Shown: piece after piece, positions 10,798 through 25,570 of the stretch
Layout: every line of letters begins with the position of its first letter
How positions within the stretch are numbered: the first letter of the stretch is position 1
Assembly (NCBI RefSeq): GCF_002843315.1
Contig: NZ_MVDD01000011.1
Span: forward strand, 1-64,000
Origin: Labilibaculum filiforme
GTDB taxonomy: Bacteria; Bacteroidota; Bacteroidia; Bacteroidales; Marinifilaceae
DNA: 64,000 nt
Reading direction: 5' to 3'
Notes under the pieces: generated by a model
Database searches by the model: none
The model's input: the letters and a program-made list of their open reading frames with translations, nothing else
What the model was told of the DNA's origin: nothing
Position numbers and translations under genes: made by a program

Positions 10798-10805
10798 TAG
10801 ATTTG
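10798..10805 (+). promoter_or_regulatory. Putative -7 element for the first riboswitch transcript
   Basis: TAGATTTG matches TAnnTTTG about 35 bases before the first conserved riboswitch block. No clear -33 TTG is present. Confidence 0.4.
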
Positions 10806-10840
10806 CAACAAATTAGGTTTCTCTCTTTTTTTGAGAATTA

Positions 10841-11035
10841 AAATGGGAATCCGGTGTAATACCGGAGCTGTCCCCGCAGCTGTAAGCCTCTCAATGAGTT
10901 TTTATTGATATGTTCTGACAAATTAGCCACTATGTGAATGTAGTTTTACCTGGGAAGGCGTTAGAATAGGTAAGCCAGAAGACCTGCCTGATGCATTGAA
11001 CTGTTTCGTAACTTCGGGGAACTGAGTAGCGAAGG
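10841..11035 (+). promoter_or_regulatory. Cobalamin riboswitch 1 (controls the BtuFCD-like importer)
   Basis: The conserved blocks run in order: 'gggaatccggtg', 'agctgtccccgcagct', 'gccact', 'tgggaaggcg' and the B12 box 'taagccagaagacctgcc' (10971-10988). The L5 loop 'tccccg' is exactly complementary to 'cgggga' in a downstream hairpin (about 11014-11020). This is the L5-L13 kissing loop known from cobalamin riboswitches. A small hairpin, ccacaa/ttgtgg (11073-11087), lies just before the start codon and could mask ribosome binding. Adenosylcobalamin is expected to repress. Confidence 0.95.
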
Positions 11036-11092
11036 TATAATTGTTGTAATTGTATTTTCAAGGCTTCTATCCCCACAATTATTGTGGAAGAA

Positions 11093-12277
11093 ATGAATTT
11101 ATTTAAACCAAGCTATTGGGTATTAATCCTGATTCTTATAATAGGAACTATTTCCTGTCAATTCGGCGACCATAAAAAGAAAGGAAAAGAATTTGAATCT
11201 GCTTCCGAAGCAGATTTAGCCTTTTATCATCCTACAATTATAAAGCATGCCAAGGGATTTAAAATAAATTTTTTGGAGAATGGCTTAAAAGAACTGATTG
11301 TTTGGGATCCATGGAACGAAGGAAAAATTTTTCAGAAGTACTATTTAAAGAACCGAGGGGAGAAATTACCATCGGATATTCCTACCGATGGAGTATTGGT
11401 AGAGGTTCCTATCAGAAGTATTGCCGCACTTTCTAGTACTCAAATTGGAATTCTAAAATTCTTAGGGGTGCAGGATAAAATCGTTGCAGTCTCTTTGCGC
11501 GATCGAATTTACGATGAGGAATTGAATAAAAAAGCACAGAATGGCACGATTCAAGCGGTTGGTCATGCCGAAAGTTTGAATTTTGAGAAGATTGTAGAGT
11601 TGGATCCTGAACTGGTAATGGTTGCTGGTTTTATGAAGATTAGCGATAAAGAATCAAAATTAATGAATGCTGGTTTGCCCGTTGCTTATAATATTGAGTG
11701 GATGGAAACTTCGCCATTAGCACGTGCCGAATGGGCAAAATTTATTGCTGCCTTTTTTAATAAGGAGGCCGAGGCCGAAAAGCAGTTTAAAGAAGTTGAA
11801 AACAGATACAATGATTTGAAGAAGTTGGTGGAGAAAGTGGAGTACAAACCAACTATTCTTTCGGGCTATAACTTTAAAGGTACTTGGTACATGCCGGGCG
11901 GGCAAAGTTATCTGGCTCAATTTCTTAGAGATGGGAAAGCAGATTATTGCTGGTTTTCGGATAGTACAAGTGGTAGTATGCCTTTAAGTTTGGAGCTTGT
12001 GTTCGATAGACAGGGCGAGGCAGATATTTGGTTTGGTCCCGGACAATGTAGATCCTTAGAGGATATGAAAAATTTGGATGACCGTTATACTCTATTTCAA
12101 CCTTACAAAACAGGTCGTGTTTTTTGCACCACAAAAAGAATGAAAGATAGTGGAGCTAACGATTGGTTCGAGTTGGGTGTAATGCAACCCGATGTGGTTT
12201 TTAAAGATATAATTAAGATTCTTCATCCCGAATTATTGCCAGATTACGAATTGTTTTACTACCAACAATTGAATTAG
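11093..12277 (+). CDS. Periplasmic substrate-binding lipoprotein of a BtuF/FepB-type ABC importer
   Basis: This 394-residue lipoprotein has a signal peptide and lipidation site C22 ('GTISC'). The body matches the helical-backbone TroA/BtuF class: 'ALSSTQIGILKFLGVQDKI' at the first lobe, 'KIVELDPELVMV' and 'ADIWFGPGQ' later. It would hold a corrinoid or iron-type chelate and deliver it to the permease encoded next. I chose the ATG at 11093; an in-frame GTG three codons earlier overlaps the small hairpin. It is the first gene of the riboswitch 1 operon, five bases before the permease. A paralogue of identical length (394 residues) begins the next operon. The substrate is inferred from riboswitch control only. 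Confidence 0.88.
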   Translation: MNLFKPSYWVLILILIIGTISCQFGDHKKKGKEFESASEADLAFYHPTIIKHAKGFKINFLENGLKELIVWDPWNEGKIFQKYYLKNRGEKLPSDIPTDGVLVEVPIRSIAALSSTQIGILKFLGVQDKIVAVSLRDRIYDEELNKKAQNGTIQAVGHAESLNFEKIVELDPELVMVAGFMKISDKESKLMNAGLPVAYNIEWMETSPLARAEWAKFIAAFFNKEAEAEKQFKEVENRYNDLKKLVEKVEYKPTILSGYNFKGTWYMPGGQSYLAQFLRDGKADYCWFSDSTSGSMPLSLELVFDRQGEADIWFGPGQCRSLEDMKNLDDRYTLFQPYKTGRVFCTTKRMKDSGANDWFELGVMQPDVVFKDIIKILHPELLPDYELFYYQQLN

Positions 12278-12282
12278 GAGCT

Positions 12283-13338
12283 ATGCTGTTGAATAAAAAT
12301 GGAAGATTGTTTTCGCTCATATTTGGAATCATATTCATACTTGTTTGTGGGGTTTTTCTCCTGGATTTAATATACGGAAGTGTAAGCATTCCCTTTAATA
12401 AAGTATTTTCCATTCTTTCGGGTGCCGATGTGAAAACCTCCTGGAACTATATCATCTTAAATTTTAGATTACCGAAAGCTTTAACTGCCATTTTTGTTGG
12501 TGCCGGATTATCGGTTACTGGCTTAATGATGCAAACACTTTTCCGAAATCCATTGGCCGGACCTTACGTTTTGGGGATTAGTGCAGGAGCAAGTTTAGGA
12601 GTTGCTTTAATGGTGATGGCATCGGCAATACTACCTGTTGCTTTCGGAGTAATTGCATCGTTTTTGGGTAGCTGGGCCTTGGTGGTTGCAGCTATTGCAG
12701 GGGCATCCTTAGTTTTTATGCTTGTTGCCTTAGCTTCATTGAAAATATCCGATAGTGTTTCCCTGCTAATTATAGGAATCATGTTTGGAAGTATTACCGG
12801 TGCGGTAGTAAATATTCTGCAATACTTTAGCGATCCAGAGCAAATACAAAGCTTTATTGTATGGACTTTTGGTAGTTTGGCAGGGGTTAGCTGGAGTGAA
12901 ATGAAAGTTATGGCACCTATTGTTTTTGTAGGCTTAATTATTGCTTTTTTTCTGATAAAACCTTTAGATGCACTTTTATTGGGTGAGAATTATGCACGCG
13001 GAGTAGGCATATCGGTTAACCGAACTCGTATTGCAGTTATTATTAGTACCGCATTAATTGCCGGAACCTTAACCGCATTTACAGGTCCTATTGCTTTTGT
13101 TGGTGTTGCAGTACCACATATTGCACGATCAATTTTTAGAACAGCAAGTCATAAGGTTCTTATGCCGGCAGTAGTTTTAATAGGTGCCGCTATAATGCTC
13201 GCCTGTGATATTATTTCTCAAATTCCGGGAAATCAAAATACATTACCAATTAATTCGGTAACAGCCTTGTTTGGAGGGCCAGTTGTAATTTGGGTGATCA
13301 TGCGTAGTAGAAATGTAAAGGCTTCTTTTGCCGGTTAG
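12283..13338 (+). CDS. btuC: FecCD/BtuC-type ABC transporter permease
   Basis: This 351-residue inner-membrane protein has about ten hydrophobic helices. Hallmarks of the family are 'RLPKALTAIFVGAGLSVTG' near residue 65, 'NPLAGPYVLGISAGASLG' near residue 90 and the C-terminal 'GPIAFVGVAVPHIAR', which is the coupling-helix region facing the ATPase. The family imports cobalamin, haem or ferric siderophores. It is tightly packed between the binding lipoprotein (five-base gap) and the ATPase (nine-base gap) under cobalamin riboswitch 1, so I favour a corrinoid substrate. A siderophore role cannot be excluded from sequence alone. Confidence 0.9.
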   Translation: MLLNKNGRLFSLIFGIIFILVCGVFLLDLIYGSVSIPFNKVFSILSGADVKTSWNYIILNFRLPKALTAIFVGAGLSVTGLMMQTLFRNPLAGPYVLGISAGASLGVALMVMASAILPVAFGVIASFLGSWALVVAAIAGASLVFMLVALASLKISDSVSLLIIGIMFGSITGAVVNILQYFSDPEQIQSFIVWTFGSLAGVSWSEMKVMAPIVFVGLIIAFFLIKPLDALLLGENYARGVGISVNRTRIAVIISTALIAGTLTAFTGPIAFVGVAVPHIARSIFRTASHKVLMPAVVLIGAAIMLACDIISQIPGNQNTLPINSVTALFGGPVVIWVIMRSRNVKASFAG

Positions 13339-13347
13339 GATGATTTT

Positions 13348-14382
13348 ATGAAGGAATTCAAAGAAATACGAAAAGACATTCTGGTAACTCAGAATCTTTC
13401 CATTGGATACAAGCAAGGGAAAAAGGATCGATTGTGCTTACTTTCTGATATCAACCTAACAATAAAACGAGGAGAAATGGTTTGTCTTCTGGGGCCAAAT
13501 GGTGCAGGAAAGTCAACCCTCATGCGAACTATTGCTGGTATTCAAACTCCCTTGTCGGGATCTACTTTGGTAGAAGGGATTCCCATTTGCGATCGAAATT
13601 TTAAAGAGATTGCCCAACTGTTAAGCATTGTTTTAACGGAACGAATTGATGTTGGAAACCTCACCGTTTACCATATCGTTTCTTTAGGACGACATCCTTA
13701 TACTTCATGGATGGGACGCTTGTCGGAAGATGATAAGGAGAAAATTAAATGGGCACTGGAACAGGTTGGTTTATTGCACTATGCTGATAATTTTATTAAT
13801 CAGTTGAGCGATGGAGAAAGACAACGGGTGATGATAGCCAAAGCTTTGGCACAGGATACGCCTTTAATCATGCTCGATGAACCTACGGCACATTTAGATT
13901 TGCCAAACCGTGTGGATATCATGCGATTACTGCATCGATTGGCTCGTGAAACCAATAAGGCTATTTTGCTCTCTACCCACGAATTAGATTTGGCACTTCA
14001 GGCTGCCGATATAATTTGGTTGATGGCACGTAGCGAACCGATTAAAATTGGAGCTCCTGAAGATTTGGTTTTGAATGGAAGTATAGAAGAAACTTTCCGT
14101 AATAAATCATTTAATTTCGACCGAAAAACTGGTAATTTTATTATGAATTATCAGAAAAAACAAAGCATTCAGGTTTTGGGTAATGATGTGATGGGTTTTT
14201 GGACTCAAAGAGCATTGTCTCGCGAAGGCTATCAAGTTACTTGTGAGAAGGTTGGCGATTGTTCCGTGAAGTTAATTGAAGATTCTATGGAATGGGAAGT
14301 GATACAAAATGGAAGTACTACAAGCTGTGTTAGTATTCAAGAATTATTGGCACACTTACGAAAAAATTCTTCCTTAGATTGA
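13348..14382 (+). CDS. btuD: FecE/BtuD-type ABC transporter ATPase with an extra C-terminal domain
   Basis: Residues 1-250 form a standard ABC ATPase, with Walker A GPNGAGKST (49-57), signature LSDGERQ (153-159), Walker B LIMLDE (173-178) and the H-loop in 'LLSTHELDLA'. It would power the preceding permease. The family is usually about 250-270 residues; this protein continues to 344. The extra part (about 260-344) looks like a small alpha/beta domain starting around 'SIQVLGNDVMGFWTQRAL', and I cannot name it. It could sense ligand or cofactor state, which is inference. This gene ends the riboswitch 1 operon. Confidence 0.9.
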   Translation: MKEFKEIRKDILVTQNLSIGYKQGKKDRLCLLSDINLTIKRGEMVCLLGPNGAGKSTLMRTIAGIQTPLSGSTLVEGIPICDRNFKEIAQLLSIVLTERIDVGNLTVYHIVSLGRHPYTSWMGRLSEDDKEKIKWALEQVGLLHYADNFINQLSDGERQRVMIAKALAQDTPLIMLDEPTAHLDLPNRVDIMRLLHRLARETNKAILLSTHELDLALQAADIIWLMARSEPIKIGAPEDLVLNGSIEETFRNKSFNFDRKTGNFIMNYQKKQSIQVLGNDVMGFWTQRALSREGYQVTCEKVGDCSVKLIEDSMEWEVIQNGSTTSCVSIQELLAHLRKNSSLD

Positions 14383-14489
14383 GACATTTATCAGTCGTAA
14401 TACATAAGTAGATGCGGCAAATAATATTTTTTGCAGTTAAAAATAAATAGTTTTACTGCGCTAAAAAAGGATTCAACCTAAATGGTTGA

Positions 14490-14690
14490 TTTAAGGGAAT
14501 CCGGTTTAAATCCGGAACTATCCCCGTAGCTGTGAATCCTAGCCCTTATGGGCGAGCTTGTAAATATATTACCACTGTCATTCAATTACTTTATCGAGTA
14601 AGATGGGAAGGTTTTTTCAAGTGGGATAAGTCAGAATACCTGCCTTTTTAGAATTTTAATAATAACTTCGGGAGAAAGTCTATTACTGTG
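14490..14690 (+). promoter_or_regulatory. Cobalamin riboswitch 2 (controls the nitrogenase-like operon)
   Basis: Blocks seen are 'gggaatccggt', 'ctatccccgtagctgt', 'accactgtc', 'gatgggaagg' and the B12 box 'taagtcagaatacctgcc' (14627-14644). The L5 loop contains CCCG and the downstream hairpin loop contains CGGG (about 14669-14672) within the stem taata/tatta, consistent with an L5-L13 kissing loop. It is the only regulatory element seen ahead of the second lipoprotein and the two nitrogenase-like genes. Confidence 0.93.
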
Positions 14691-14733: not shown

Positions 14734-15918
14734 ATGAAACAAATTTTATTGATTTTGTTTGTGATTGTATTGAGCGGAGGATGCAATAATTACAAACGGA
14801 AAGAGGTTCATCGTCAGGATGTATCGGCTCAGATTCGAATGAAAAAAGAGAAGTTTGATTTCTCTTTTACGCCTCAGGTGAAACATGCAAAAGGATTTTC
14901 GATTGAGGTAAAAAATGGTTTTAAGGAAATTACGGTTTACAATCCTTGGAAGAAGGATATTGTTCTAAAAAAATACATTCTAATCTCACAAGAATGTGAA
15001 GTGCCGGATGACATTCCCGAAAATGTATTCTACGTTAAAACACCGGTAAAATCTGTTGCTCTTTTCTCAAACTCACACATTGGAAGTTTTGCTGAGTTAG
15101 GATTGTTGGATAAAATTGTTGGACTTACCAGAGCTAATCGTATATACAACAATAATTTACAATCGAGATTTAACAAAGGGAGTCTACCTAATTTGGGGGG
15201 CGCGCACAATACAAACTTGGATATTGAGAAAATTGTAGAACTTGCCCCAGAATTGATTATTTTATCTGCTTTAAATGAGGTAAAAGCCGGAGAAACTCAT
15301 TTAAATAAAATAGGATTCAATATGGCATATGCTTTAAATTGGATGGAATCAACTCCATTGGGTCGTGCTGAATGGATTAAATTTATTGCGGCTTTTTTCA
15401 ATAAAGATTTGGAGGCAAATAACTTCTTTGAAAATGTGGAAAGTCGGTATGTAAAACTTCAGAAGATGGCAGGTAAGTTGGAGAAAAAATCTTCTGTTGT
15501 GATGGGCTGGAGCTATAGCGGAGTGTGGTATGTGCCCGGAGGAAGAAACTACATGGTTAATTATTTAAGAGATGCAGGTGCTAACTATTTTCTCCTTGCT
15601 GATACTACAAGAGGAAGTATTCCTATGAGTGTAGAAAGTGTAATGGATCATTGTAGTGAAGCGGATATTTGGTTAAGTCCGGGGCAAAGCAAAAGTTTAA
15701 AGGAAATCGAGAATGCAGATCACATTTATACTCAATTTAAAGCGTACAGGAATGGAGATGTTTACAACATCTATAAATTATTGTCTTTGTCGGGAGGTAG
15801 CGATTGGTGGGAGACCGCTCCAATTCGTCCTGATCTTGTTTTAAAGGATTTAATAAAGGTATTTCATCCGGAAATATTACCGCAGGATACGACATATTTT
15901 ATTTCGAAACTACAGTAA
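14734..15918 (+). CDS. Second BtuF/FepB-type substrate-binding lipoprotein, paired with a nitrogenase-like reductase
   Basis: This 394-residue lipoprotein has lipidation site C17 ('LSGGC') and the same fold as the first binding protein. Shared blocks include 'WME..PL.RAEW.KFIAAFFNK', 'VWYVPGG', 'SEADIWLSPGQ' and 'DLVLKDLIKVFHPEILP'. It has no permease or ATPase of its own, so it probably shares the importer encoded just upstream. Being first in the operon of the nitrogenase-like genes, it may deliver that enzyme's substrate or a different corrinoid. I chose the ATG at 14734 over a TTG one codon earlier. The paralogy is seen directly; ligand specificity is inference. Confidence 0.88.
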   Translation: MKQILLILFVIVLSGGCNNYKRKEVHRQDVSAQIRMKKEKFDFSFTPQVKHAKGFSIEVKNGFKEITVYNPWKKDIVLKKYILISQECEVPDDIPENVFYVKTPVKSVALFSNSHIGSFAELGLLDKIVGLTRANRIYNNNLQSRFNKGSLPNLGGAHNTNLDIEKIVELAPELIILSALNEVKAGETHLNKIGFNMAYALNWMESTPLGRAEWIKFIAAFFNKDLEANNFFENVESRYVKLQKMAGKLEKKSSVVMGWSYSGVWYVPGGRNYMVNYLRDAGANYFLLADTTRGSIPMSVESVMDHCSEADIWLSPGQSKSLKEIENADHIYTQFKAYRNGDVYNIYKLLSLSGGSDWWETAPIRPDLVLKDLIKVFHPEILPQDTTYFISKLQ

Positions 15919-15967
15919 TCGTGTTGTGAGTTGTTCCTCGAATTTTATAGAGAAATTAGAAAGATAT

Positions 15968-18238
15968 ATGGCAAAAAGTAAATTGACTCAGGTAGCTATT
16001 TATGGAAAAGGAGGAATTGGTAAATCGACTATTTCAGCCAATGTTTCAGCTGCTCTTGCTGCATGCAACAAGAAAATTTTGCAAGTGGGTTGCGACCCTA
16101 AGCACGATTCTACACGTTTATTAATGAACGGGCGAAATATTACAACTGCCTTAGATTATTTGAAAGCTACCGAACCCAATGATTACAATTTAAACGATAT
16201 CGTATTCCATGGATATCGTGATGTTGCTTGCGTTGAAGCAGGTGGACCAGAGCCTGGGGTGGGTTGTGCGGGTAGAGGTATTATCAGCACCTTTAAATTG
16301 TTAGAAGATCTGGGAATAAAAGAAATAAACTTCGATTATACGATTTATGATGTTTTGGGCGATGTGGTGTGTGGTGGTTTTGCAGTACCTATTCGTCGGG
16401 AGTATGCTGATCGAATTTATGTGGTCACTTCGGGTGAATACATGTCGATTTATGCAGCGAATAATATTTTAAAAGGAATTAAAAATTACGATCACGGCAA
16501 AAAGAGGATTGGAGGAATTATCTTTAATCAGAGAGGTGTTGCAGATGAGGAGGGAAGAGTTCAACGTTTTGCCAAAGCAGTAAATTTGCCAATATGCGTA
16601 AATATACCTCGCAGCGACGAATTTGCGATTGCTGAACAGGAAGGAATGACTTTAACTGAGCGTTTCCCTCATTCTTCTATGAGAGAGAAATTTGAGCAGT
16701 TAGCAGGTCTAATAATTGAAAATGGAGAGCTTTATGGAGCTAATCCGTTAGAAGATATCGATTTGGAAGAAACGGTTTTAGGCTTTAAAGTTAAAGATTC
16801 TAACTGTCGAAACGAGAAAGAAAAAGCAGGTGTAAATGATAAGAATAAGACGGTAGAATCTGACAGTGTAAAATTAGATCATAGTACTGCTAATGAGAGG
16901 TTTAATCGTAAAATAGTTGAAAAAAAAGATCCTAAAAGTTTTATTTCTAAGAGCCTTTTGTATCGAGAGCCTTTGCATGGATGTGCCTATAATGGAAGTA
17001 TCGGAGTTAGTATACAGGTAACCGATGCCATAAGTTTATCTCATGGCCCGGCAAGTTGTGCTCATATGGCAAATAATGCAGTTACCAGTATTGGACGTAG
17101 AGCTATGTTTGAGAGAGGAGCAGTGTTGACATCAAATATTATTCCTCCCTTACAAAGTACCGATATGGATGAGAGTGTGATGGTTTTTGGAGGGATGGAT
17201 CTATTGCGCAAAAAAGTAGAAAAATGTTTGAAAGAAAAACCTGCAGCATTAATTATTACTACATCTTGTACTCCCGGAATTAGTGGTGATGATTTAGATC
17301 ATATTCTTCAAATGGGGACAGAGGAATGTCCTATTATTCCAATTAAAGCCGATGGGGATATGGCTGGAGATTATTTGCAAGGTGTAATCATGTCTCATCT
17401 GGAAATTGCGCGTTATCTGATTGATAAAAAAGTAAAGCCAGTTGGAAATAAGGTTAATATTATTGGAGAACGTTCTGTTGGGCGAAATGCAGAAAACAAT
17501 CACAAAATAGTGGAAGAGTTAATTTCTTCTTTAGGCTTAGAGATTAACTGTCGATTTATAAAGAATACAACAGTTGAAAATATAAAAAACTTACTGCTTG
17601 CTGATTACAACATTCTTGCAATGGATGATTATATGGGTAGAATGTTGAAAGATTTTCTGGAGAATGAATATGGTGCTAAATTTTTCCCTCATCGTTTACC
17701 GGTTGGTTTTTATGAAACAAAACAATGGTTACAGGGATTGGCTTCCTTGTATCAAAAAGAGGATGTTTTGACAGATATGTTACTTGCTAAGGAGGATGAA
17801 TTTACAAGAAGGTTGAATGAACTTAAGCCTTATTTGAAAGGAAAGAAAATATTGATAGTCATGTATATGAGAAATATTGATTGGTTGTTGGAAACTATTT
17901 TTGCCCTGGAAATGGAAGTGATTCAAGTTAATATTATCAATTCATGTATGGATGATCGTTTTCTGTCGAGATATTTAGATAGAGTGAAATTGGTCGAGAA
18001 TTATGAGTTTGTGAATGAGGGTGAGGAGCTTGCAGAATTGCAACCAGACATTTTACTAACCAATTACAATACAACAGTAATTAAAGGAGATTTCTTTTGC
18101 GATACTATACCTTATAATCCGGGTTGTGGATTTTTTAGTGGGCTAGATTTGGCAAGTCGATGGAAAGAGATATTTAATAAAAACATTAAAGAAAGCTGGA
18201 AAAATGATAGAGAGCACTTTACCAAATATTTTGCCTGA
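15968..18238 (+). CDS. Fused NifH-like Fe protein and NifD-like catalytic subunit (nitrogenase superfamily)
   Basis: This 756-residue fusion has an Fe-protein domain (about 1-275) with P-loop GKGGIGKST (13-21), cluster cysteines C100 ('GVGCAGRG') and C135 ('DVVCGGF'), and Arg103. A charged linker spans about 275-330. The NifD-like domain carries C339 ('LHGCAY'), C364 ('GPASCAH') and C434 ('TTSCTPGISGDD'), the positions of the three NifD P-cluster cysteines. By hand alignment the FeMo-cofactor ligand positions are Met552 (Cys in NifD) and probably an Asp (His in NifD), so nitrogen fixation is unlikely. The cysteine pattern is closest to the dark-operative chlorophyll reductases. A GTG at 15926 is an alternative start, seven bases after the lipoprotein gene. 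The reaction is unknown. Confidence 0.92.
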   Translation: MAKSKLTQVAIYGKGGIGKSTISANVSAALAACNKKILQVGCDPKHDSTRLLMNGRNITTALDYLKATEPNDYNLNDIVFHGYRDVACVEAGGPEPGVGCAGRGIISTFKLLEDLGIKEINFDYTIYDVLGDVVCGGFAVPIRREYADRIYVVTSGEYMSIYAANNILKGIKNYDHGKKRIGGIIFNQRGVADEEGRVQRFAKAVNLPICVNIPRSDEFAIAEQEGMTLTERFPHSSMREKFEQLAGLIIENGELYGANPLEDIDLEETVLGFKVKDSNCRNEKEKAGVNDKNKTVESDSVKLDHSTANERFNRKIVEKKDPKSFISKSLLYREPLHGCAYNGSIGVSIQVTDAISLSHGPASCAHMANNAVTSIGRRAMFERGAVLTSNIIPPLQSTDMDESVMVFGGMDLLRKKVEKCLKEKPAALIITTSCTPGISGDDLDHILQMGTEECPIIPIKADGDMAGDYLQGVIMSHLEIARYLIDKKVKPVGNKVNIIGERSVGRNAENNHKIVEELISSLGLEINCRFIKNTTVENIKNLLLADYNILAMDDYMGRMLKDFLENEYGAKFFPHRLPVGFYETKQWLQGLASLYQKEDVLTDMLLAKEDEFTRRLNELKPYLKGKKILIVMYMRNIDWLLETIFALEMEVIQVNIINSCMDDRFLSRYLDRVKLVENYEFVNEGEELAELQPDILLTNYNTTVIKGDFFCDTIPYNPGCGFFSGLDLASRWKEIFNKNIKESWKNDREHFTKYFA

Positions 18239-19508
18239 TGCCTTTTCAGGTGCATTGTTCGCTCTGGAGGGAATAAAAGACAGTCTTGTAGTATTAAATG
18301 GACCTACTGGTTGTAAATTTTATCATGCAGCAGTTTCTGGCGATCAATTAATTCGAGGATTCTCCTATGATCCGGTGACGAATCCAGAACGATATTATTT
18401 CAGACAAAATAGAATTCCCTGTACTTTTTTAGATGATCATGACTTTGTATATGGAGCGACTAAAAAGCTGGAAGCTATTCTGGAGTTTATTCGTAATGAT
18501 CAATTCGAATATTTGGCAATTGTCAACTCTCCGGGAGCAGCCTTAATTGGAGATGATTTGGAAAGTTTTTTTAGAAATGCTTATCCCGATATGCCGGGAA
18601 TCACAATAGAAAATACTGGATTCTCAGAGGCTTTTTCTAAAGGGTATTCCGATACGTTCTTAAAGATTCTTCAAAGCATAAAGCCTGTTGGAGAGTTGGT
18701 TAAAGAGAAAAAAACAGTCAATTTGTTAGGAGTCTCAATTTATCACAAATATTTTGAAGGTGATATTTTAGAAATGAAGCGCCTGTTAAATTTATGTGGC
18801 ATAAAAGTTAAAACAAGCATGTTGGCTGGTGATTCAACCGAACAATTAAGCCGGTTTACTGAAGCTGAACTCAATATCGTTTTACAGCCGGAATATGGAA
18901 AGCGAGCTGCACAATGGATGGAAAAAGAGTTTGGAATTCCTTATATAGAAATGGAAACGGGAATGTGTATTGGTTTCGATGCTTGTGAAAACTTTCTGCA
19001 AGAAGTTTGTAATTGCTTATTATGTGATGTTTCGCCTGCAATTAAAGATGTTATGCATGCAAGAGCCAGAGCTTTTGCCAATTTGTACAGTTTTAATTCG
19101 TTAACAGGCTTGCCGAAAGGTGCTTATTTTTCTATCAAAGCAGAAGCATCAATGGCCTATGCATTTACCCATTTTATGCATTCTTATTTGGGTATGATCC
19201 CGGAAAAAATAGAGTTTATTCCGGCTGATAGGAATGGAGATTATGAGGAAAAATTGAATCGATTTTTAGAAGCTAACGGATTGAGGAATAGTATAGGAAA
19301 ACTCGAGAATATCGAATTATCTTCTCTCGTATTAGCTGATGCAAACACTATTGCTCAAGTTCAGTTAACCCGTAATTCTTTATTTGGAATAGAAATTTCA
19401 CTGCCAAGTTTTGGGTATGTACACGTACTTCCAAAAACATTTATTGGAAGTAATGGTTCTTTGTATTTGCTTGAACAGTTGTTGAATGGACTTAAGTTTG
19501 TAAGTTAA
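18204..19508 (+). CDS. NifK/BchB-like partner subunit of the nitrogenase-like reductase
   Basis: This 434-residue protein of the nitrogenase component 1 fold starts 35 bases inside the preceding gene, implying translational coupling and a joint complex. C37 in 'GPTGCKF' corresponds to NifK Cys95. C73 ('IPCTFLDDHDFVYGA') matches the 'PVSC..DSMTEDAAVFGG' region of NifK. The third P-cluster position is Ser-Pro ('VNSPGAALIGDD') and the first is absent. One ligand here plus three in the NifD-like partner could hold a single bridging [4Fe-4S] cluster, as in BchN-BchB. No terminator follows directly; the next promoter element is at 19585. The family is firm, the substrate unknown. Confidence 0.88.
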   Translation: MIESTLPNILPDAFSGALFALEGIKDSLVVLNGPTGCKFYHAAVSGDQLIRGFSYDPVTNPERYYFRQNRIPCTFLDDHDFVYGATKKLEAILEFIRNDQFEYLAIVNSPGAALIGDDLESFFRNAYPDMPGITIENTGFSEAFSKGYSDTFLKILQSIKPVGELVKEKKTVNLLGVSIYHKYFEGDILEMKRLLNLCGIKVKTSMLAGDSTEQLSRFTEAELNIVLQPEYGKRAAQWMEKEFGIPYIEMETGMCIGFDACENFLQEVCNCLLCDVSPAIKDVMHARARAFANLYSFNSLTGLPKGAYFSIKAEASMAYAFTHFMHSYLGMIPEKIEFIPADRNGDYEEKLNRFLEANGLRNSIGKLENIELSSLVLADANTIAQVQLTRNSLFGIEISLPSFGYVHVLPKTFIGSNGSLYLLEQLLNGLKFVS

Positions 19509-19584
19509 ATTCTGTTCGAAAAAAAAATCTTATCGTTAGGAGGAATAAAATGATATAAAAAGGAATGCGCTGTAAAAATTTATT

Positions 19585-19592
19585 TATTTTTG
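19585..19592 (+). promoter_or_regulatory. Putative -7 element for riboswitch 3 transcript
   Basis: TATTTTTG is a perfect TAnnTTTG match about 45 bases before the riboswitch core. A -33 TTG is not evident. Confidence 0.5.
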
Positions 19593-19631
19593 CACCGCAT
19601 TTGGTATTTCATTTCTCATAATCGAGAATGA

Positions 19632-19820
19632 AATGAAAAGGGAATTCGGTGAAAATCCGAGACTATACCCGTAGCTGTAAGTTCTAAAAAAAGCTTTTTG
19701 AAAGACCTATGCCACTGTTCCAATTTTGGAATGGGAAGGCCTCAAAAAGTAGAACAAGTCAGAAGACCTGCCTTTGCAATCAATTTTAAGTCATTGCTTT
19801 CGGGAAAAAGAGCAAGTGAA
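19632..19820 (+). promoter_or_regulatory. Cobalamin riboswitch 3 (controls the first TonB receptor)
   Basis: Blocks seen are 'gggaattcggtgaaaatccg', 'ctatacccgtagctgtaag', 'gccactgttcc', 'aatgggaagg' and the B12 box 'caagtcagaagacctgcc' (19755-19772). The CCCG in L5 can pair with CGGG in the downstream hairpin loop (about 19801-19804; stem ttgct/agcaa). Confidence 0.95.
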
Positions 19821-19953: not shown

Positions 19954-22077
19954 ATGAAAAGAACATTTTTAACGGCTTTTGCATTGCTATCATTATTTAA
20001 TTCTGCAGTAAAAGCTGATGAGATTCCAAAATCAACCGAAGATAAAACGGTTGTGAAACACCTCGATTTATCCGAAGTTCAAATTAATGCATCGCGTGTA
20101 AATGCCAAAATGAAAGATCTTCCTCAGAAGGTGGAGGTTATTACAAGAAGAATGATTGAGGCAACTCCCGCTGTTGATATGGGAGAATTGCTAAAAAAGA
20201 CTTCGGGTGTTGATATCATTCAATATCCAGGTATTTCTTCGGCAGTTAGTATGAGAGGTTTCGCTCCATCTACATCCAACAAATACAATGTAATTTTAAT
20301 TGATGGTAGGCCTGCTGGAACCACAAATATTGCAACAATCGATTTATCGAATGTAGAGCGGGTTGAAATTCTAAAGGGCCCTTTTTCTGCTCAATATGGC
20401 TCTTCGGCTATGGCTGGAGTAATCAATATTGTTACGAAAGAAAGCACGCAAAACATTTCTGGAAATGCAAGTGTTTCTTACGGAAGCTTCGAAAAGTATA
20501 CTGCAAATTTGAGTGTTGGTGGGGCATTATCAGAGTCGATGGATTTTGATGTGAGCTACAACTACCAAAAGCAAGGAGCCGATTATAAAATCGGGGAAAA
20601 GAATCTTCTGGGAAAAAGTGACGCCGAAGCCATATTAGATCCATCTACTTACGGAGAGAAAATGGAGCATTCTCAATTCGAAAGACAGAATGCAAGTGCT
20701 CGTTTAGGTTTTATTTTAGACGAAAACTGGAAAATCAATATCCATCAGTCTGTTTTTATAGCCAATGATGTCGAAACTCCAGGTTCCTTTTGGCATGTGT
20801 ATGGGATGAATTCAAAAGATATGAATACATATACAACAAGTGCCGATGTACTGGGAAAAATAGGAAATCATAACTTAAGTTTGTCTCCTTTTCATAGTAA
20901 AGAGGAGTCAACTTCATTCAACTCTAAATATGGAGATACAGAAAGTATTCATAAGAACTACGGCTTTATTCTTCAGGATGCGTTTAAAGTTGGAGATCAT
21001 TCTTTTGCTTTTGGTATCGATAATAAAAACGATGTATTTGAAAGCAATAAATGGACTACCACGGGTGATGTTATCGCGCCTTCTACTCCGAAATATAAAA
21101 ATGTAGCAACGGGTATTTATGGTCAAATTAATACAAATACTTTAGAGGGTAAATTGAATATCGCCATAGGAGCAAGGTACGATTTGGTAAAATTAAATCT
21201 GGAAGCAGATCATCTGTTAGGAAATGAAGCGAGTTCAGAGGAATACAACGTGTTTACACAAAATATTGGGGTGAAATATGAACTTCTAGAGGGTTTAGCT
21301 CTGCATTCAAGTTGGGGAAATGCATTTTATGCTCCTGATGCATTTCAAAAGGCAGGTTTGTATACAAGTGCTTATGGAACGACTAAAGGAAATCCAAACT
21401 TAAAAAATGAAGAGAGTAATACTTTTGATCTTGGCTTTGAATATCAAAATTTTGCCAAGGGTTTTAATTTTGATTTCACTTATTTTAAAACACATCATAA
21501 GAACATGATTGTCAGATTTTCTGAAGATCCAGATGGTACCGCATACAATGGAGATGAGTACATTACATTTAAGAATGCAAATTTTGCCGATATGGATGGT
21601 ATCGAAATTCAAGCATCTTACGATTTTGGCGCTTTGGTTGATTATAATTATTCACTGAAGCTATATGCAAATTATACCCATATTATAGATGCTATGGTAA
21701 CCGAGCGAGAGAAACAAACCGATGGAACTTATAAAAATAAAGAAAGTTCGATGAGATATGTTCGCGATAACAATGCCAATTTTGGAATTGACTTTGACAA
21801 TTTAAATGGATTTTCGACCCGTTTAAATGCTCGTTATATTGGGCATCGTTACGAAGACAATTGGTATACCCATTATCCAGTTCGAACTAATGTTACCGAA
21901 AAAGTTCTTCGTCATCCTGTTTCAATGGTTTTTGACTATTCAGCAAATTATACAATCAAAGAGAAGTATAGTCTTGGTTTATCTGTAGATAATTTGCTCG
22001 ATGAAAATTACACCGAGAAAGATGGCTACAATATGCCTGGCAGAACAATAACAGCAAAGTTTAATTATAAGTTTTAA
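19954..22077 (+). CDS. btuB: TonB-dependent outer-membrane receptor, probable corrinoid or tetrapyrrole transporter
   Basis: This 707-residue receptor has a signal peptide (MKRTFLTAFALLSLFNSAVKA), a TonB-box-like segment ('LSEVQINA'), a plug domain (about 45-165, with 'VEILKGPFSAQYGSSAMAG') and a 22-strand barrel ending in 'FNYKF' with a terminal aromatic. I chose the ATG at 19954; an earlier TTG adds a non-signal stretch. It would bring a scarce ligand across the outer membrane with TonB-ExbBD energy. It sits alone behind cobalamin riboswitch 3. Compared with the second receptor in the locus it is longer and has no BtuG-like partner, so the two may take different corrinoids. Ligand identity is inferred from the riboswitch. 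Confidence 0.88.
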   Translation: MKRTFLTAFALLSLFNSAVKADEIPKSTEDKTVVKHLDLSEVQINASRVNAKMKDLPQKVEVITRRMIEATPAVDMGELLKKTSGVDIIQYPGISSAVSMRGFAPSTSNKYNVILIDGRPAGTTNIATIDLSNVERVEILKGPFSAQYGSSAMAGVINIVTKESTQNISGNASVSYGSFEKYTANLSVGGALSESMDFDVSYNYQKQGADYKIGEKNLLGKSDAEAILDPSTYGEKMEHSQFERQNASARLGFILDENWKINIHQSVFIANDVETPGSFWHVYGMNSKDMNTYTTSADVLGKIGNHNLSLSPFHSKEESTSFNSKYGDTESIHKNYGFILQDAFKVGDHSFAFGIDNKNDVFESNKWTTTGDVIAPSTPKYKNVATGIYGQINTNTLEGKLNIAIGARYDLVKLNLEADHLLGNEASSEEYNVFTQNIGVKYELLEGLALHSSWGNAFYAPDAFQKAGLYTSAYGTTKGNPNLKNEESNTFDLGFEYQNFAKGFNFDFTYFKTHHKNMIVRFSEDPDGTAYNGDEYITFKNANFADMDGIEIQASYDFGALVDYNYSLKLYANYTHIIDAMVTEREKQTDGTYKNKESSMRYVRDNNANFGIDFDNLNGFSTRLNARYIGHRYEDNWYTHYPVRTNVTEKVLRHPVSMVFDYSANYTIKEKYSLGLSVDNLLDENYTEKDGYNMPGRTITAKFNYKF

Positions 22078-22224: not shown

Positions 22225-22232
22225 TATTTTTG
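22225..22232 (+). promoter_or_regulatory. Putative -7 element for riboswitch 4 transcript
   Basis: TATTTTTG matches TAnnTTTG about 45 bases before the riboswitch core, the same arrangement as at riboswitch 3. A TTG lies only 11 bases upstream, which is closer than usual. Confidence 0.5.
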
Positions 22233-22276
22233 CAGAGTAATTGGTTCTCGTGTATCTGATATTTTATCAGGTGGAG

Positions 22277-22456
22277 ATGAAAAGGGAATCCGGTGAGAGT
22301 CCGGAGCTGTTCCCGTAGCTGTAAGCTCAATAAAAAAGCTTTTTCACTGCAATGCCACTGTTCTTGTAAAAGGGAATGGGAAGGCCGAAAAAGTTGAGTA
22401 AGTCAGAAGACCTGCCAATGCAAACTTAATTTTCAAAACATTCGGAGAAGATGTTT
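22277..22456 (+). promoter_or_regulatory. Cobalamin riboswitch 4 (controls the BtuB/BtuG-like pair)
   Basis: Blocks seen are 'gggaatccggtgagagtccg', 'gctgttcccgtagctgtaag', 'gccactgttc', 'aatgggaagg' and the B12 box 'taagtcagaagacctgcc' (22399-22416). A hairpin aacat/atgtt with loop 'tcggagaag' (about 22436-22454) holds the L13 position. Its match to L5 is weaker than in riboswitch 1. Confidence 0.95.
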
Positions 22457-22523: not shown

Positions 22524-24434
22524 ATGAAGTTGAAATTTGTATTTGTGCTGTTAGGAAGCTTTTTAAGCTTGTATGGTAGTGGTCAAACACTTGGGATTGA
22601 TACGATTCATATCGAATCGGTTGATATTGTAGCGCCACGATTACAGCATTTTTCTGCCACCGAAAAAACAGTTCAAATTGATTCTATTCTTATTCAGAGA
22701 TACGACGGAAAAGATTTATCTAATTTACTCCAGAAAACATCTTTGGTAAATGTATCGTCCAATGGTGCTTTTGGAGGGCTTGCCACGGTCGGAATGCGTG
22801 GTGCTTCGGGTACTCATACATCTGTAAATTGGAATGGAATTCCGGTTAATTCTTTAACAACAGGATCTGCCGATTTATCATTAATAAATGCTGGTTCTTT
22901 CGATGAAGTTCAGGTAATTTATGGTGCTGTAGGATCTTTGTATGGTTCCGGAACTTTGGGGGGAGCTATTGAGTTGTCGAATTCTCCAGATTGGAAGAAA
23001 AAATCTACTTTGGGAATAATGTCTGAAGTGGGAAGTTTCTCAAACACGAAAACAAAACTTTATGGGAAGTATTCCAATAATTGGATTTCCTATTCAGGTC
23101 AGGCATTTTTTCAATATGGAAAGAATGATTTTTCGTACACCGATTTTCATGATTTTGGTTCTCCTACCGAGCGATTAAATAACAATGAGAACAGAGCCTT
23201 CGGAACTATTCAGGACATGCATTTAAAAATAAACGAACATTATATCGATTTAGGGGTTTGGTATCAGGTGAAAGAAAAAAATATTGCCGGTTTAATGGGA
23301 ATTGGCGATCCGGTTAGTTTTCAAAAGCAAAGAGATTCTTCCTTTAAAGCTTACGTAGGGTGGAAGAAGCTGATTGGTAAATTCCGACTGGAAGTCAAAT
23401 CAGCCTATTTGTCGGATTATTTGAAATATACCGATAGAGGTAGCGCTACAAATACCGGATACAAAATATTTTCGGAAATAGAATCAAAACGATGGTTGAA
23501 CGATGCCAATTTAAGGTACTATTTAACGGATAAATTGAGCGTTGATGTTAACGGAAAGTACAATTGGTTAAAGGGAATTACGAACAATTACCAAGGCGAT
23601 ATCATTGAAAATGAATCGAGATTAACTTTAGCGACTAAGTATTCTCCATCAATCGGAACCTTTATTTTTACCTATGGTAAAGAATGGAATTCGGAGGTGA
23701 ACCCACCAGAAATGTATTCTTTTAGCTCTTTGTTTCATCTCGCACCTCATGTTTTAAACTTCCGAGCGAAAGGATCCACTCATTACAGAAGACCAACATT
23801 TAATGAGCGATACTGGAATAATGCGGGTAATCTCGATTTAAAATCGGAGAATGGCTGGAATTATGAATTAGGTTTGGTAATGTTGCCACAAAAGACATTA
23901 GGTGGCAGTCTTTCTGTTGATTTGAATGCATATAAAGCTTTAAATGATGATTTAATTGCTTGGCAACCAGAATCAGGAACAATTTGGAAACCGATGAATA
24001 TTGGAAAAACTGTTATTCAGGGATTCGATATAGAGGCGAATCATGTTAAAAATATTAGAAAAAATAGTCTTCATACTTCCTTAAAGTATGCTTATAACGA
24101 CTCCTATAATAACGATAAAGAAAGTGAGGAGTACAAAGAAACATTAGCTTACCGTCCTCATCATCTAGTGAAATTTTCTTCCGATTATTTATGTGGAAGG
24201 TGGGATATTGGAGCCTTGGGAACGCTGCGTTCCAATACCAATACTTGGGAAGGCGATCAGGTAGATGGAAATTTGCTTATTGATTTAAATGGAGCTTATC
24301 GTTTCGATACCAAATTTGCAAAAATTAAACTAACGGGAAGAGTAGAAAATCTGTTGGATGAATCATATGAAATTGTTAGGTTTTACCCCATGCCTGGCAG
24401 AGCATATTATTTTGGGGTGAATGTAATTTTTTAA
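22524..24434 (+). CDS. btuB: TonB-dependent outer-membrane cobalamin receptor, BtuB-like
   Basis: This 636-residue receptor has a signal peptide (MKLKFVFVLLGSFLSLYGSGQ), a plug domain with 'LLQKTSLVNVSSNG' and 'GAVGSLYGSGTLGGAIELS', and a barrel ending in 'YYFGVNVIF'. The length is in the range of BtuB (about 600-650). It is followed eleven bases later by a BtuG-like propeller lipoprotein, an arrangement known from Bacteroides BtuB-BtuG pairs, which form a surface complex with very high cobalamin affinity. The ATG at 22524 gives a clean signal peptide; the upstream TTG does not. It is controlled by riboswitch 4. Corrinoid uptake is well supported by context. Confidence 0.9.
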   Translation: MKLKFVFVLLGSFLSLYGSGQTLGIDTIHIESVDIVAPRLQHFSATEKTVQIDSILIQRYDGKDLSNLLQKTSLVNVSSNGAFGGLATVGMRGASGTHTSVNWNGIPVNSLTTGSADLSLINAGSFDEVQVIYGAVGSLYGSGTLGGAIELSNSPDWKKKSTLGIMSEVGSFSNTKTKLYGKYSNNWISYSGQAFFQYGKNDFSYTDFHDFGSPTERLNNNENRAFGTIQDMHLKINEHYIDLGVWYQVKEKNIAGLMGIGDPVSFQKQRDSSFKAYVGWKKLIGKFRLEVKSAYLSDYLKYTDRGSATNTGYKIFSEIESKRWLNDANLRYYLTDKLSVDVNGKYNWLKGITNNYQGDIIENESRLTLATKYSPSIGTFIFTYGKEWNSEVNPPEMYSFSSLFHLAPHVLNFRAKGSTHYRRPTFNERYWNNAGNLDLKSENGWNYELGLVMLPQKTLGGSLSVDLNAYKALNDDLIAWQPESGTIWKPMNIGKTVIQGFDIEANHVKNIRKNSLHTSLKYAYNDSYNNDKESEEYKETLAYRPHHLVKFSSDYLCGRWDIGALGTLRSNTNTWEGDQVDGNLLIDLNGAYRFDTKFAKIKLTGRVENLLDESYEIVRFYPMPGRAYYFGVNVIF

Positions 24435-24444
24435 TACTAAAAAT

Positions 24445-25512
24445 ATGAATAGGTTTTTAAAATTTGGATTAGGCTTGTTGATTGCGAGTTTTGTATTCGT
24501 ATCGTGTTCTGATGATGATAATGACATCTCTAAATTAAAAGGAAATTTTGTACTGAACGAAGGAAGTACTAATGGATCAGTTAGCTTAATTGATGAAGAT
24601 GACCAGGTTACTTTAAATTATTTCGCTGCTGCAAATAGTGGTATATCTTTAGGTCAGTATCCTCAATCTATGGCAATGAATGGCGATTACATATTTATTG
24701 TTGTAACTACAGTAAACGGGGCTGGTTATGTTGAAGTTGTTACGGCTACAGATTTTAAGCATTTTGCTACTATTTCGGGTTTCTCGTACCCTAGGGAAAT
24801 TGCTTTTGCTAATGGAAAAGCCTACGTATCGAATGGTAATGGTGCTGATGCAAGTTATTCAAAGCAAAATAATGAGGTTTACATTATCGATTTAGAAACA
24901 ATGACTAAAAATGGGGAGATTGCAGTTGGTGCAGGACCTGAAAAAATGATTGTTTCCGGGAATAAATTATTCGTTGTAAATAGTGGCGGATGGTCGAATG
25001 ATGACAATACAGTTTCTGTTATTGATGTGGATACAGACAAAGTGGTAGAGACAATCACTGTGAAATCTTGCCCTAAGGATATGGTTGAAGATGCAAATGG
25101 CGATCTTTGGGTGTATTGTAGTGGTGTACCTAACTATGATAACTATCCAAGCGTTAGTTATACTAATGCTGGAATATCAAAAATTAGTGGAGATACATAT
25201 GCAGTATCATCATTTGATTTAACCAATTTAAGTTCTCCAGGAATTAAAAATATTGCAATCAGTAAAGATGAAAAAACTGTTTATTATATGTCTGATGCTG
25301 TTTATGCAATGAGTATTACAGCTACAGCTCTACCAACAGCTAAATTTATTGATGCTACTTTCTACGGAATGGATGTAAATCCTCAAAATGGTAACCTTTG
25401 GTTGTGTGTAGGAGCAAATCCTGGGAAAGTAATTGTATATTCTTCAACAGCTGAAAAGTTAAAAGAATTTACAGTTGGAGCAATGCCTAATTCAACAACA
25501 TTTTCTTACTAA
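24445..25512 (+). CDS. btuG: BtuG-like surface lipoprotein with YncE-type beta-propeller
   Basis: This 355-residue lipoprotein has lipidation site C21 ('FVSC') followed by acidic residues (SDDDND), which resembles the lipoprotein export signal used for surface display in Bacteroidota. The body is made of repeated propeller blades: 'YPQSMAMNGDYIFIV', 'YPREIAFANGKAYVS', 'GPEKMIVSGNKLFVV' and 'CPKDMVEDANGDLWVY'. It matches the YncE/DUF5074 class that includes BtuG, which captures cobalamin outside the cell and caps BtuB. It is co-transcribed with the receptor just upstream and followed by a strong terminator. The family and context agree; binding of cobalamin itself is inferred. Confidence 0.85.
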   Translation: MNRFLKFGLGLLIASFVFVSCSDDDNDISKLKGNFVLNEGSTNGSVSLIDEDDQVTLNYFAAANSGISLGQYPQSMAMNGDYIFIVVTTVNGAGYVEVVTATDFKHFATISGFSYPREIAFANGKAYVSNGNGADASYSKQNNEVYIIDLETMTKNGEIAVGAGPEKMIVSGNKLFVVNSGGWSNDDNTVSVIDVDTDKVVETITVKSCPKDMVEDANGDLWVYCSGVPNYDNYPSVSYTNAGISKISGDTYAVSSFDLTNLSSPGIKNIAISKDEKTVYYMSDAVYAMSITATALPTAKFIDATFYGMDVNPQNGNLWLCVGANPGKVIVYSSTAEKLKEFTVGAMPNSTTFSY

Positions 25513-25535
25513 TAAATCTGTTTTATAAAATATTG

Positions 25536-25570
25536 GTGGCATTCCTAAATTTAGGGATGCCACTTTTTTT
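25536..25570 (+). terminator. Rho-independent terminator of the BtuB/BtuG-like operon
   Basis: The stem gtggcat.cct with agg.atgccac is followed by seven T residues. It closes the 16-kb corrinoid-related region. Confidence 0.9.

Follow-up and report, generated by a model that had tools for sequence, protein, structure and literature searches.

The fused nitrogenase-like gene pair and its locus

We analyzed a 64,000-nucleotide stretch of DNA from Labilibaculum filiforme (contig NZ_MVDD01000011.1, positions 1 to 64,000; genome code G000), referred to below as the window, whose plus strand carries a nitrogenase-like gene pair. The first gene (15968..18238) encodes a 756-aa protein, here named HD, in which NifH- and NifD-like parts are fused, and the second (18204..19508) encodes its 434-aa NifK-type partner, K. 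HD matched Pfam Fer4_NifH (PF00142; 317 bits for the domain at 15989..16780, 314 bits over residues 8–271) and Oxidored_nitro (PF00148; 204 bits, 16982..18169, residues 339–734), and K matched Oxidored_nitro (165 bits, residues 13–430). Both domain families were above their curated cut-offs (25 bits for Fer4_NifH and 28.6 bits for Oxidored_nitro), and HD and K belong to the nitrogenase superfamily. The two domains of HD are joined by a linker (16793..16978, residues 276–337) that was predicted to be disordered, with a predicted local distance difference test score (pLDDT) under 50. The Fe-protein domain contains the P-loop GKGGIGKS, C100 and C135, and the NifD-type domain contains C339, C364 and C434. 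An initial annotation of the window had described such a 756-residue chain with these five Cys residues and a NifK-like partner overlapping it by 35 bases; coordinates, lengths and Pfam domains agreed with it, and the P-loop and all five Cys were invariant in the nine complete fused HD proteins collected from the genomes described below. An in-frame GTG at 15926 would extend HD to 770 aa, and the ATG at 15968 was preferred as its start. In the G000 genome, the single strong NifH-type match was the fusion itself, and searches with the K or D domain found no other NifD/E/K/N-type gene.

The reading frames of HD and K overlap by 35 nt in the window (18204..18238). Among the nine complete members (window, L056, L063, L074, L075, L076, L084, L085 and L086; G and L numbers denote the genomes and loci compared), the overlap was 32 nt in seven and 35 nt in two. 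This conservation suggests translational coupling of the two genes. In one member, G1040 (L075:8721), the K start codon according to the alignment was ATC, and the first in-frame ATG, GTG or TTG occurred at 8802.

Four cobalamin riboswitches (Rfam RF00174, gathering score 31.5) scoring 80–101 bits were found within 12 kb of window sequence, all on the plus strand like the genes around them. One of them (14451..14661, 80.1 bits) heads a unit composed of a periplasmic binding protein (14734..15918; Peripla_BP_2, 78.7 bits), HD and K; the stop codon of the binding protein gene is 49 nt ahead of HD, and no terminator-like site was found on the plus strand between 14661 and 19508. The cobalamin riboswitch that had been placed over HD-K in the initial annotation was thereby recovered by the Rfam model. 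The two solved relatives found for this binding protein were other ABC (ATP-binding cassette) binding proteins, not BtuF. The remaining riboswitches were located ahead of ABC importer genes (10798..11005, 101.2 bits), 76 nt past K (19584..19789, 101.3 bits) and ahead of a BtuB-like receptor (22225..22434, 97.8 bits).

The importer genes encode another periplasmic binding protein (11084..12277; Peripla_BP_2, 98.7 bits), a FecCD/BtuC-type permease (12283..13338; FecCD 265 bits; top NCBIfam model BtuC at 199 bits, below its cut-off of 334) and an ABC ATPase (13348..14382; ABC_tran 110 bits; top NCBIfam model corrinoid ABC transporter ATPase at 190 bits, cut-off 537). Downstream of K and behind its own riboswitch is a TonB-dependent receptor nearest the hemin family (19954..22077; TIGR01785 249 bits, below the cut-off of 317), whose solved relatives include the colicin I receptor and BtuB. 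It is followed by the BtuB-like TonB receptor (22524..24434), with top solved relatives 8p98_A (vitamin B12 transporter BtuB, E 1.5e-33), 8p97 and 8bmx, and by a beta-propeller lipoprotein (24445..25512), which we take to be BtuG-like and whose solved relatives (8bmx_D, E 3e-22; 8p97_B) came from the same entries as those of the receptor. Past the propeller gene, at 25535–25564, a hairpin with 13 pairs and a T run makes up a strong terminator-like site, a possible end of the B12 uptake region. The gene preceding the locus (9601..10599) encodes a TIM-barrel protein with a faint likeness to the cobamide-remodelling enzyme CbiR, and was rejected as a member of that family (NF041277, 22 bits versus a cut-off of 105).

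Distribution, phylogeny and cluster ligands of the fused pair

In genome sets representing the phylum (395 genomes) and order (393 genomes) of the window, we found no clade member besides the window's own, and the best other matches had E-values of 4.6e-16 (K query) and 1.4e-21 (D query) at 26–27% identity. In the window's family, the pair occurred in 2 of 56 genomes, G000 and G812, whose proteins were 77% (HD) and 70% (K) identical. A single scan of named genomes identified one further carrier, Syntrophomonas sp. UBA4922 (L063, genome G833). In the phylum of this metagenome-assembled genome, close K relatives (E 4e-90 or better) were present in 5 of 398 genomes, and among relatives of G1150 and of G859, 2 of 149 and 4 of 149 genomes, respectively, were positive at 1e-40, adding three new carriers altogether. 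The pair was thus known from ten genomes, G000 and nine others, with pairwise identities of 43–77% for HD and 37–70% for K. The fused HD was complete in nine of them; in G1148 the contig starts inside D, and this D was left out of the D trees and the D alignment. Since complete fused HD proteins were found in eight genomes other than that of the window, at 43–77% identity, the fusion is not an accident of assembly.

In eight other genomes of the window's genus (G782–G789, L122), K of the fused pair was found in none; seven of the eight had a nitrogenase Fe-protein match with NifD/E-type matches on the same contig, and one had no match. Scans of viral contigs, in which K by itself and the alignments of D and of K served as queries, showed no relative. 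In plasmid searches, K had 22 matching records and HD 266, none of which reached 60% identity; the matches listed (40 of 266 for HD) were named as other nitrogenase-family genes or unannotated. Matches in G1200 and G941 (E about 1e-31) were considered as clade members and rejected, as trees put the G1200 pair (both runs) and the G941 pair (first run) among ordinary nitrogenase-like (Nfl) rows. G1200 (L135–L139) had an unusually rich nitrogenase-like set, with 24 Oxidored_nitro matches at 1e-10. G1040 also contained an unfused H-D-K-like trio of overlapping genes (L143:4042-7320), in which H was nearest CfbC (below cut-off) and D matched no NCBIfam model at 1e-15.

Phylogenetic analyses separated the fused pair from the reference families included. 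The first D/K tree had 74 rows (nine fused D, ten fused K, NifD/E/K/N, AnfD/K, BchN/Y/B/Z and 30 other Nfl sequences), with supports from the Shimodaira-Hasegawa-like approximate likelihood ratio test. Fused D and fused K each formed one clade with a support of 100. A second, more careful tree kept 58 of the 74 rows (four long single rows and 12 of the 30 Nfl rows were dropped), and both clades were again recovered (100/100 each). In a tree of 18 H domains, built from a set without BchL or BchX, the fused H domains also formed one clade (100/99). The pair therefore did not fall inside any family included (NifDKEN, Anf, Bch and Nfl); Bch was represented by a small number of rows on long branches, the rows comprised neither CfbD nor MarDK, and roots were not inferred. 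All three trees gave the same pairings (window with G812, G833 with G1150, G1040 with G1383, and G1254 with G859 and G1237), some with supports of only 83–85, which is consistent with a single fusion event inherited as a unit. Besides, the window and G812, both of the window's family, were sisters inside a set otherwise derived from another phylum. This nesting suggests a horizontal transfer between phyla, presumably Bacteroidota and Bacillota.

We then aligned the clade with reference rows, including one BchY, two BchZ and one BchB. On the D side, the three NifD cluster Cys (C339, C364 and C434) were kept in all nine fused proteins and also in all 11 reference rows. On the K side, one of the three NifK Cys was kept (C37), and Asp12 and Pro110 occupied the other two columns in all ten proteins. 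The two BchZ rows had the same single Cys as C37 of K, and the BchB row had Asp at that column. The six P-cluster Cys of the Mo, V and Fe nitrogenases were thus incomplete, with three in D and one of three in K. The columns of the NifD cofactor Cys and His were picked from what we take to be the NifD motifs. The cofactor-Cys column contained M, K, Y or F in the nine proteins and Met552 in the window, the residue that the initial annotation had assigned to the FeMo-cofactor Cys position. The probable Asp that it had placed at the cofactor-His position did not hold up: this column was a gap in all nine, although an invariant Asp712 was close by. C528 of HD was invariant in the clade and present in none of the 11 reference rows, which makes it a candidate active-site residue.

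Because D keeps three Cys, K keeps one and the cofactor Cys and His columns hold neither residue, we infer a [4Fe-4S] cluster held by three D-side Cys and one K-side Cys, as in chlorophyllide reductase (COR), and we would expect neither a P-cluster nor a FeMo-type cofactor in HD-K. A FeMo-cofactor or P-cluster enzyme was rejected on the basis of the ligands missing from the alignment. C100 and C135 are expected to hold the bridging [4Fe-4S] cluster of the Fe-protein domain.

Membership of a known equivalog was also rejected, as all scores of the NCBIfam equivalog models shown (25 of 29 for HD and 13 of 13 for K) were below cut-off. COR (BchXYZ) resembles HD-K in its combination of an Fe protein with a D/K-type core, with three D-type Cys and one K-type Cys at the same columns (one BchY and two BchZ rows). 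However, COR consists of three separate proteins and its clades were separate from the fused ones; BchX scored 207 bits (cut-off 331) and BchZ 38 (cut-off 529), and BchY was not among the models shown. The logic of dark-operative protochlorophyllide reductase (DPOR, BchLNB) is likewise [4Fe-4S]-only, and DPOR chains were the best structural neighbors of K, but its BchB row had Asp where K has Cys37 (10 of 10). Its models scored 201 bits (BchL, cut-off 345), 40 (BchN, cut-off 420) and, for BchB (cut-off 490), 62 with HD and 69 with K. With regard to CfbCD, the H domain scored equally with the CfbC and NifH models (328 bits each, CfbC cut-off 402), and CfbD scored 24 (HD) and 33 (K) against a cut-off of 268. 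CfbCD is described as Ni-sirohydrochlorin a,c-diamide reductase, a tetrapyrrole reductase (PMC7242693), and CfbD as a homodimer (PMC12176620), whereas D and K differ here. The methylthio-alkane reductase (Mar) and NflDK belong to the same superfamily, and Mar chains were the best solved profile matches of K and D. MarDK is reported to have all six P-cluster Cys and an [Fe8S9C] active-site cluster (PMC12552129). In contrast, some of these ligands are missing from the fused D and K, which fall outside the Nfl rows (30 and 18 in the two trees, in which MarDK was not a row), and the COR-like ligand set argues against a six-Cys P-cluster of the MarDK kind. Mo nitrogenase (NifHDK) and NifEN share the domain families, the P-loop and the Fe-protein Cys, but the fused clade has no cofactor Cys and one of three K-side P-cluster Cys.

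In structure models, K had a mean pLDDT of 80.6, and its nine best fold matches were DPOR chains (E 4e-20 to 3e-18). The HD model had a mean pLDDT of 74.6 and a predicted template modelling score of 0.58, with residues 276–337 as a low-confidence linker; all 50 fold matches listed for it were nitrogenase or Mar Fe proteins, a list uninformative on the D part. The linker varied from 33 to 90 residues among the nine fused proteins. By analogy with Fe proteins, the H domains of two HD chains would pair with each other while tethered to their own cores.

According to the initial annotation, no characterized member was known to have this fusion, and we found no report of the proposed corrinoid role; a 'fused nifH/nifE' of the archaeon Candidatus Methanomassiliicoccus intestinalis, however, is already named as a table landmark, with no function given (PMC4153887). 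It combines NifH- and NifE-type domains in one gene, judging from the gene name alone, and may or may not be of the same clade. It is possible that the fused clade overlaps the nitrogenase-like 'group VI', which is labelled as putative tetrapyrrole cofactor biosynthesis genes in another study (PMC9391474). In the titles and abstract openings covered by our search, no nitrogenase relative was tied to a cobalamin riboswitch or to a corrinoid role of this kind.

Gene context and cobalamin riboswitches across the clade

In G812, the gene order around HD-K was riboswitch, two binding proteins, CobN (918 bits, above the cut-off of 822), ChlI-type, ChlD-type, CbiZ, HD, K, riboswitch, TonB receptor, riboswitch, second TonB-type receptor and a propeller-like protein, the last assigned by eye. 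G859 and G1237 shared another order: riboswitch (34.6 bits in G859, which is weak against 31.5, and 98.4 bits in G1237), small protein, membrane protein without Pfam match, double ABC ATPase (in G859 of the energy-coupling factor (ECF) type, below cut-off), SLH protein, DUF4430 protein, HD, K and ECF S component. The SLH protein had a toroid match below cut-off in G859 and none in G1237. A toroid together with DUF4430 presumably resembles the make-up of transcobalamin. DUF4430 is also mentioned in a paper on B12 binders (PMC4350170). In G1254, a membrane protein, HD, K and an ECF S component were found, with no cobalamin riboswitch in 20 kb; the gene before HD had been considered a DUF4430 protein, but it proved to be a membrane protein of the lysylphosphatidylglycerol (LPG)-synthase type. 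Altogether, transport genes adjoined HD-K in 5 of 10 carriers (G000, G812, G859 and G1237, and G1254 with its S component).

G1383 (L084:759-18641) had six cobalamin riboswitches in 20 kb. One of them precedes HD by about 1.2 kb on its strand, and the two are separated by a YitT-type gene in the opposite orientation. At the same locus, two tandem riboswitches preceded an SLH protein whose toroid match was weak, and another preceded an apparent anaerobic ribonucleotide reductase (assigned by eye) about 3 kb from HD-K. In G1150, a cobalamin riboswitch was located about 2 kb downstream of K. The 11 kb of G1148 contained no riboswitch, and inspection by eye revealed nothing that looked related to corrinoids. 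A second locus of G833 (L066:960-14651) contained ChlI-type, CobN, radical SAM, nitrilase-type, CbiZ and ChlD-type genes and SLH/toroid/DUF4430 proteins in a row; no riboswitch was found there. A chelatase partner was rejected as a general rule, as CobN was present in two of three fused-clade genomes tested, absent in G000 and at this separate locus in G833. At least four tetrapyrrole-methylase matches and CbiJ were found in 9 of 10 carriers, so most carriers seem also able to make corrins.

Cobalamin riboswitches occurred in 6 of 10 fused loci (G000, G812, G859, G1237, G1383 and G1150; stretches of 8.5 to 64 kb), and in G000, G812, G859 (weak) and G1237 one lay upstream of the apparent HD-K operon on the same strand. 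The first control set, 17 non-fused nitrogenase-family loci including 8 from fused-clade genomes, had none (0/17, p 0.0007). A second set comprised nine nitrogenase-family loci of 20 kb (L078, L079 and seven others), of which three came from fused-clade genomes other than G1148 and one from G1148; these control loci were part of the non-fused loci obtained. None of the nine had a riboswitch (Fisher p 0.008; 0.015 without the window, and 0.029 also without its kin G812). Within 2.1 kb, riboswitches were found at 4 of 10 fused loci (p 0.012; 0.032 without the window). Homologues were therefore not mostly situated away from riboswitches: 6 of 10 had one, compared with 0 of 9 (20 kb) and 0 of 17 controls. 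The riboswitch link to the fused clade is supported, but by few loci, and the operon make-up in G812, G859 and G1237 is a stronger argument than the counts. The fused pair is co-located with corrinoid genes, although this is weaker if near flanks only are compared.

Proposed function of HD-K and its alternatives

The evidence leans, if modestly, towards HD-K being an ATP-driven, [4Fe-4S]-only corrinoid reductase for import, salvage or remodelling. A role in corrinoid salvage is suggested by the riboswitch class, the import genes and CbiZ, and direct reduction of a tetrapyrrole by the COR-like ligand set. The initial annotation had likewise proposed an ATP-driven reductase of a corrinoid or related tetrapyrrole. 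Its proposal gained from the ligand pattern, which fits a tetrapyrrole-reductase cluster, and from riboswitches in 6 of 10 and transport genes in 5 of 10 loci; as to substrate and reaction, we infer them from this context, and 4 of 10 loci had no riboswitch. In the mechanism envisaged, two H domains would meet, holding one [4Fe-4S] cluster (C100 and C135) and two MgATP, and would dock on the D-K core to which they are permanently tethered by the flexible linker. ATP hydrolysis would drive single low-potential electrons to the second [4Fe-4S] cluster (C339, C364 and C434 of D; C37 of K), from which a core-bound corrinoid would receive them directly, as happens to the substrates of the protochlorophyllide and chlorophyllide reductases. 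In its usual sense, a cobalamin riboswitch raises expression when cobalamin is scarce, and HD-K would then be expressed together with corrinoid import. Because of this expected co-expression, the reaction would be expected to help convert imported or incomplete corrinoids into usable ones.

Several observations weighed against this interpretation. No riboswitch was found in four of the ten fused loci scanned (G833, G1254, G1040 and G1148). G833 had none in 13.7 kb, and its neighbors were a Fur-like protein (assigned by eye) and ZnuA. In G1040, HD-K was preceded by DUF3786 and followed by a CobW-type protein, and the genome had two methylase matches only and no CbiJ. The first control was weak, as its flanks were short (median 1.8 kb per side); within about 1.8 kb the count was 3 of 10 versus 0 of 17 (p 0.04; 0.11 without the window). 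In the window's own genome, CobN was not found, and the receptor directly after K was closer to hemin receptors than to BtuB. In the fold list of K, a nitrogenase chain ranked tenth (E 5e-18), a small margin behind DPOR, and when solved proteins were compared by sequence profile, K and D both matched Mar chains best, not DPOR. Furthermore, cobalamin riboswitches are known to control B12-independent stand-ins. The weakness in the near flanks is offset by the 20-kb control.

Within the corrinoid reductase interpretation, the electrons might go to cobalt instead of the ring, with reduction of Co(II) to Co(I), or stripping of the upper ligand, before adenosylation of an imported corrinoid and with the ring untouched. 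This is a sub-case whose weight is counted within that interpretation, and we hold it to be possible though doubtful. Ordinary adenosyltransferase systems need no ATP-driven nitrogenase-like machine, which counts against it, and the import context is in its favor. ATP-driven low-potential activation is described for some corrinoids and for the nickel of F430 (PMC12176620). The activation complex of methyl-coenzyme M reductase, which couples ATP to low-potential reduction at a tetrapyrrole metal (PMC12176620), is a precedent for electron transfer to cobalt, with a different ATPase and different cluster proteins. The tetrapyrrole-reducing relatives characterized in the literature consulted, however, act on ring double bonds (PMC7242693). 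Since characterized enzymes with these ligands reduce such bonds, the ring is slightly preferred over cobalt as the electron target.

The strongest true rivals to a corrinoid reductase are a different tetrapyrrole substrate and a B12-independent stand-in. In the former, haem, a chlorin, or a nickel or metal-free ring would be the substrate, carried in a shared uptake locus. The receptor after K, best with the hemin-receptor family (below cut-off), would fit such a substrate, as would the CobN/BchH-type chelatase set in G812 and the 'group VI' label of putative tetrapyrrole cofactor genes (PMC9391474). Nevertheless, all Rfam riboswitches beside the clade were of the cobalamin class, and the family name of CbiZ is adenosylcobinamide amidohydrolase; we consider this alternative unlikely. 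In the latter, HD-K would be a low-cobalamin enzyme replacing a B12-dependent one, similar to MetE or class III ribonucleotide reductase. Consistent with this possibility, the apparent anaerobic ribonucleotide reductase of G1383 stands behind its own riboswitch near HD-K, G1040 carries HD-K but neither the corrin methylase set nor CbiJ, and a published study links one subgroup of nitrogenase-like genes to methionine biosynthesis in archaea (PMC9391474). However, in G000, G812, G859 and G1237, HD-K was found inside an apparent import or remodelling operon and not alone, and the K-side ligand set matched BchZ, not MarK; we regard a stand-in role as rather improbable.

A small non-tetrapyrrole substrate, as for methylthio-alkane reductase or nitrogenase, would agree with the shared superfamily and with the Mar chains as best solved profile matches, but is very unlikely given that two of three K P-cluster Cys and the cofactor Cys are missing, that the cofactor-His column is a gap and that G000 has no other NifD/E/K/N-type gene found with the K or D query. 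Replacement of the precorrin-6A reductase CbiJ in corrin biosynthesis, suggested by a reductase regulated with B12 genes, is scarcely credible, as 9 of 10 fused-clade genomes keep CbiJ, so that no replacement is needed, and the tenth, G1040, also has no methylase set.

The nitrogenase relatives whose roles are known have N2, sulfur compounds, or precursors of chlorophyll or F430 as their substrates. A clade linked to corrinoids by riboswitch and operon would add a branch of tetrapyrrole chemistry and would show that ATP-driven low-potential electrons are spent on B12 salvage. More tentatively, and at somewhat less than even confidence, HD-K may be the first relative of nitrogenase to act in vitamin B12 metabolism, as a self-contained, tethered reductase of the corrin ring or metal. 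It would allow the repair or remodelling of corrinoids that are imported, damaged, metal-free or foreign, and in some species a CobN-ChlI/ChlD metal chelatase and CbiZ would take over from it. If true, the superfamily would gain a new class of reaction, possibly yielding a reduced corrinoid not yet described. The system is compact, with the Fe protein built into its own catalyst, and would make the rescue of unusable corrinoids by anaerobic bacteria accessible to tests.

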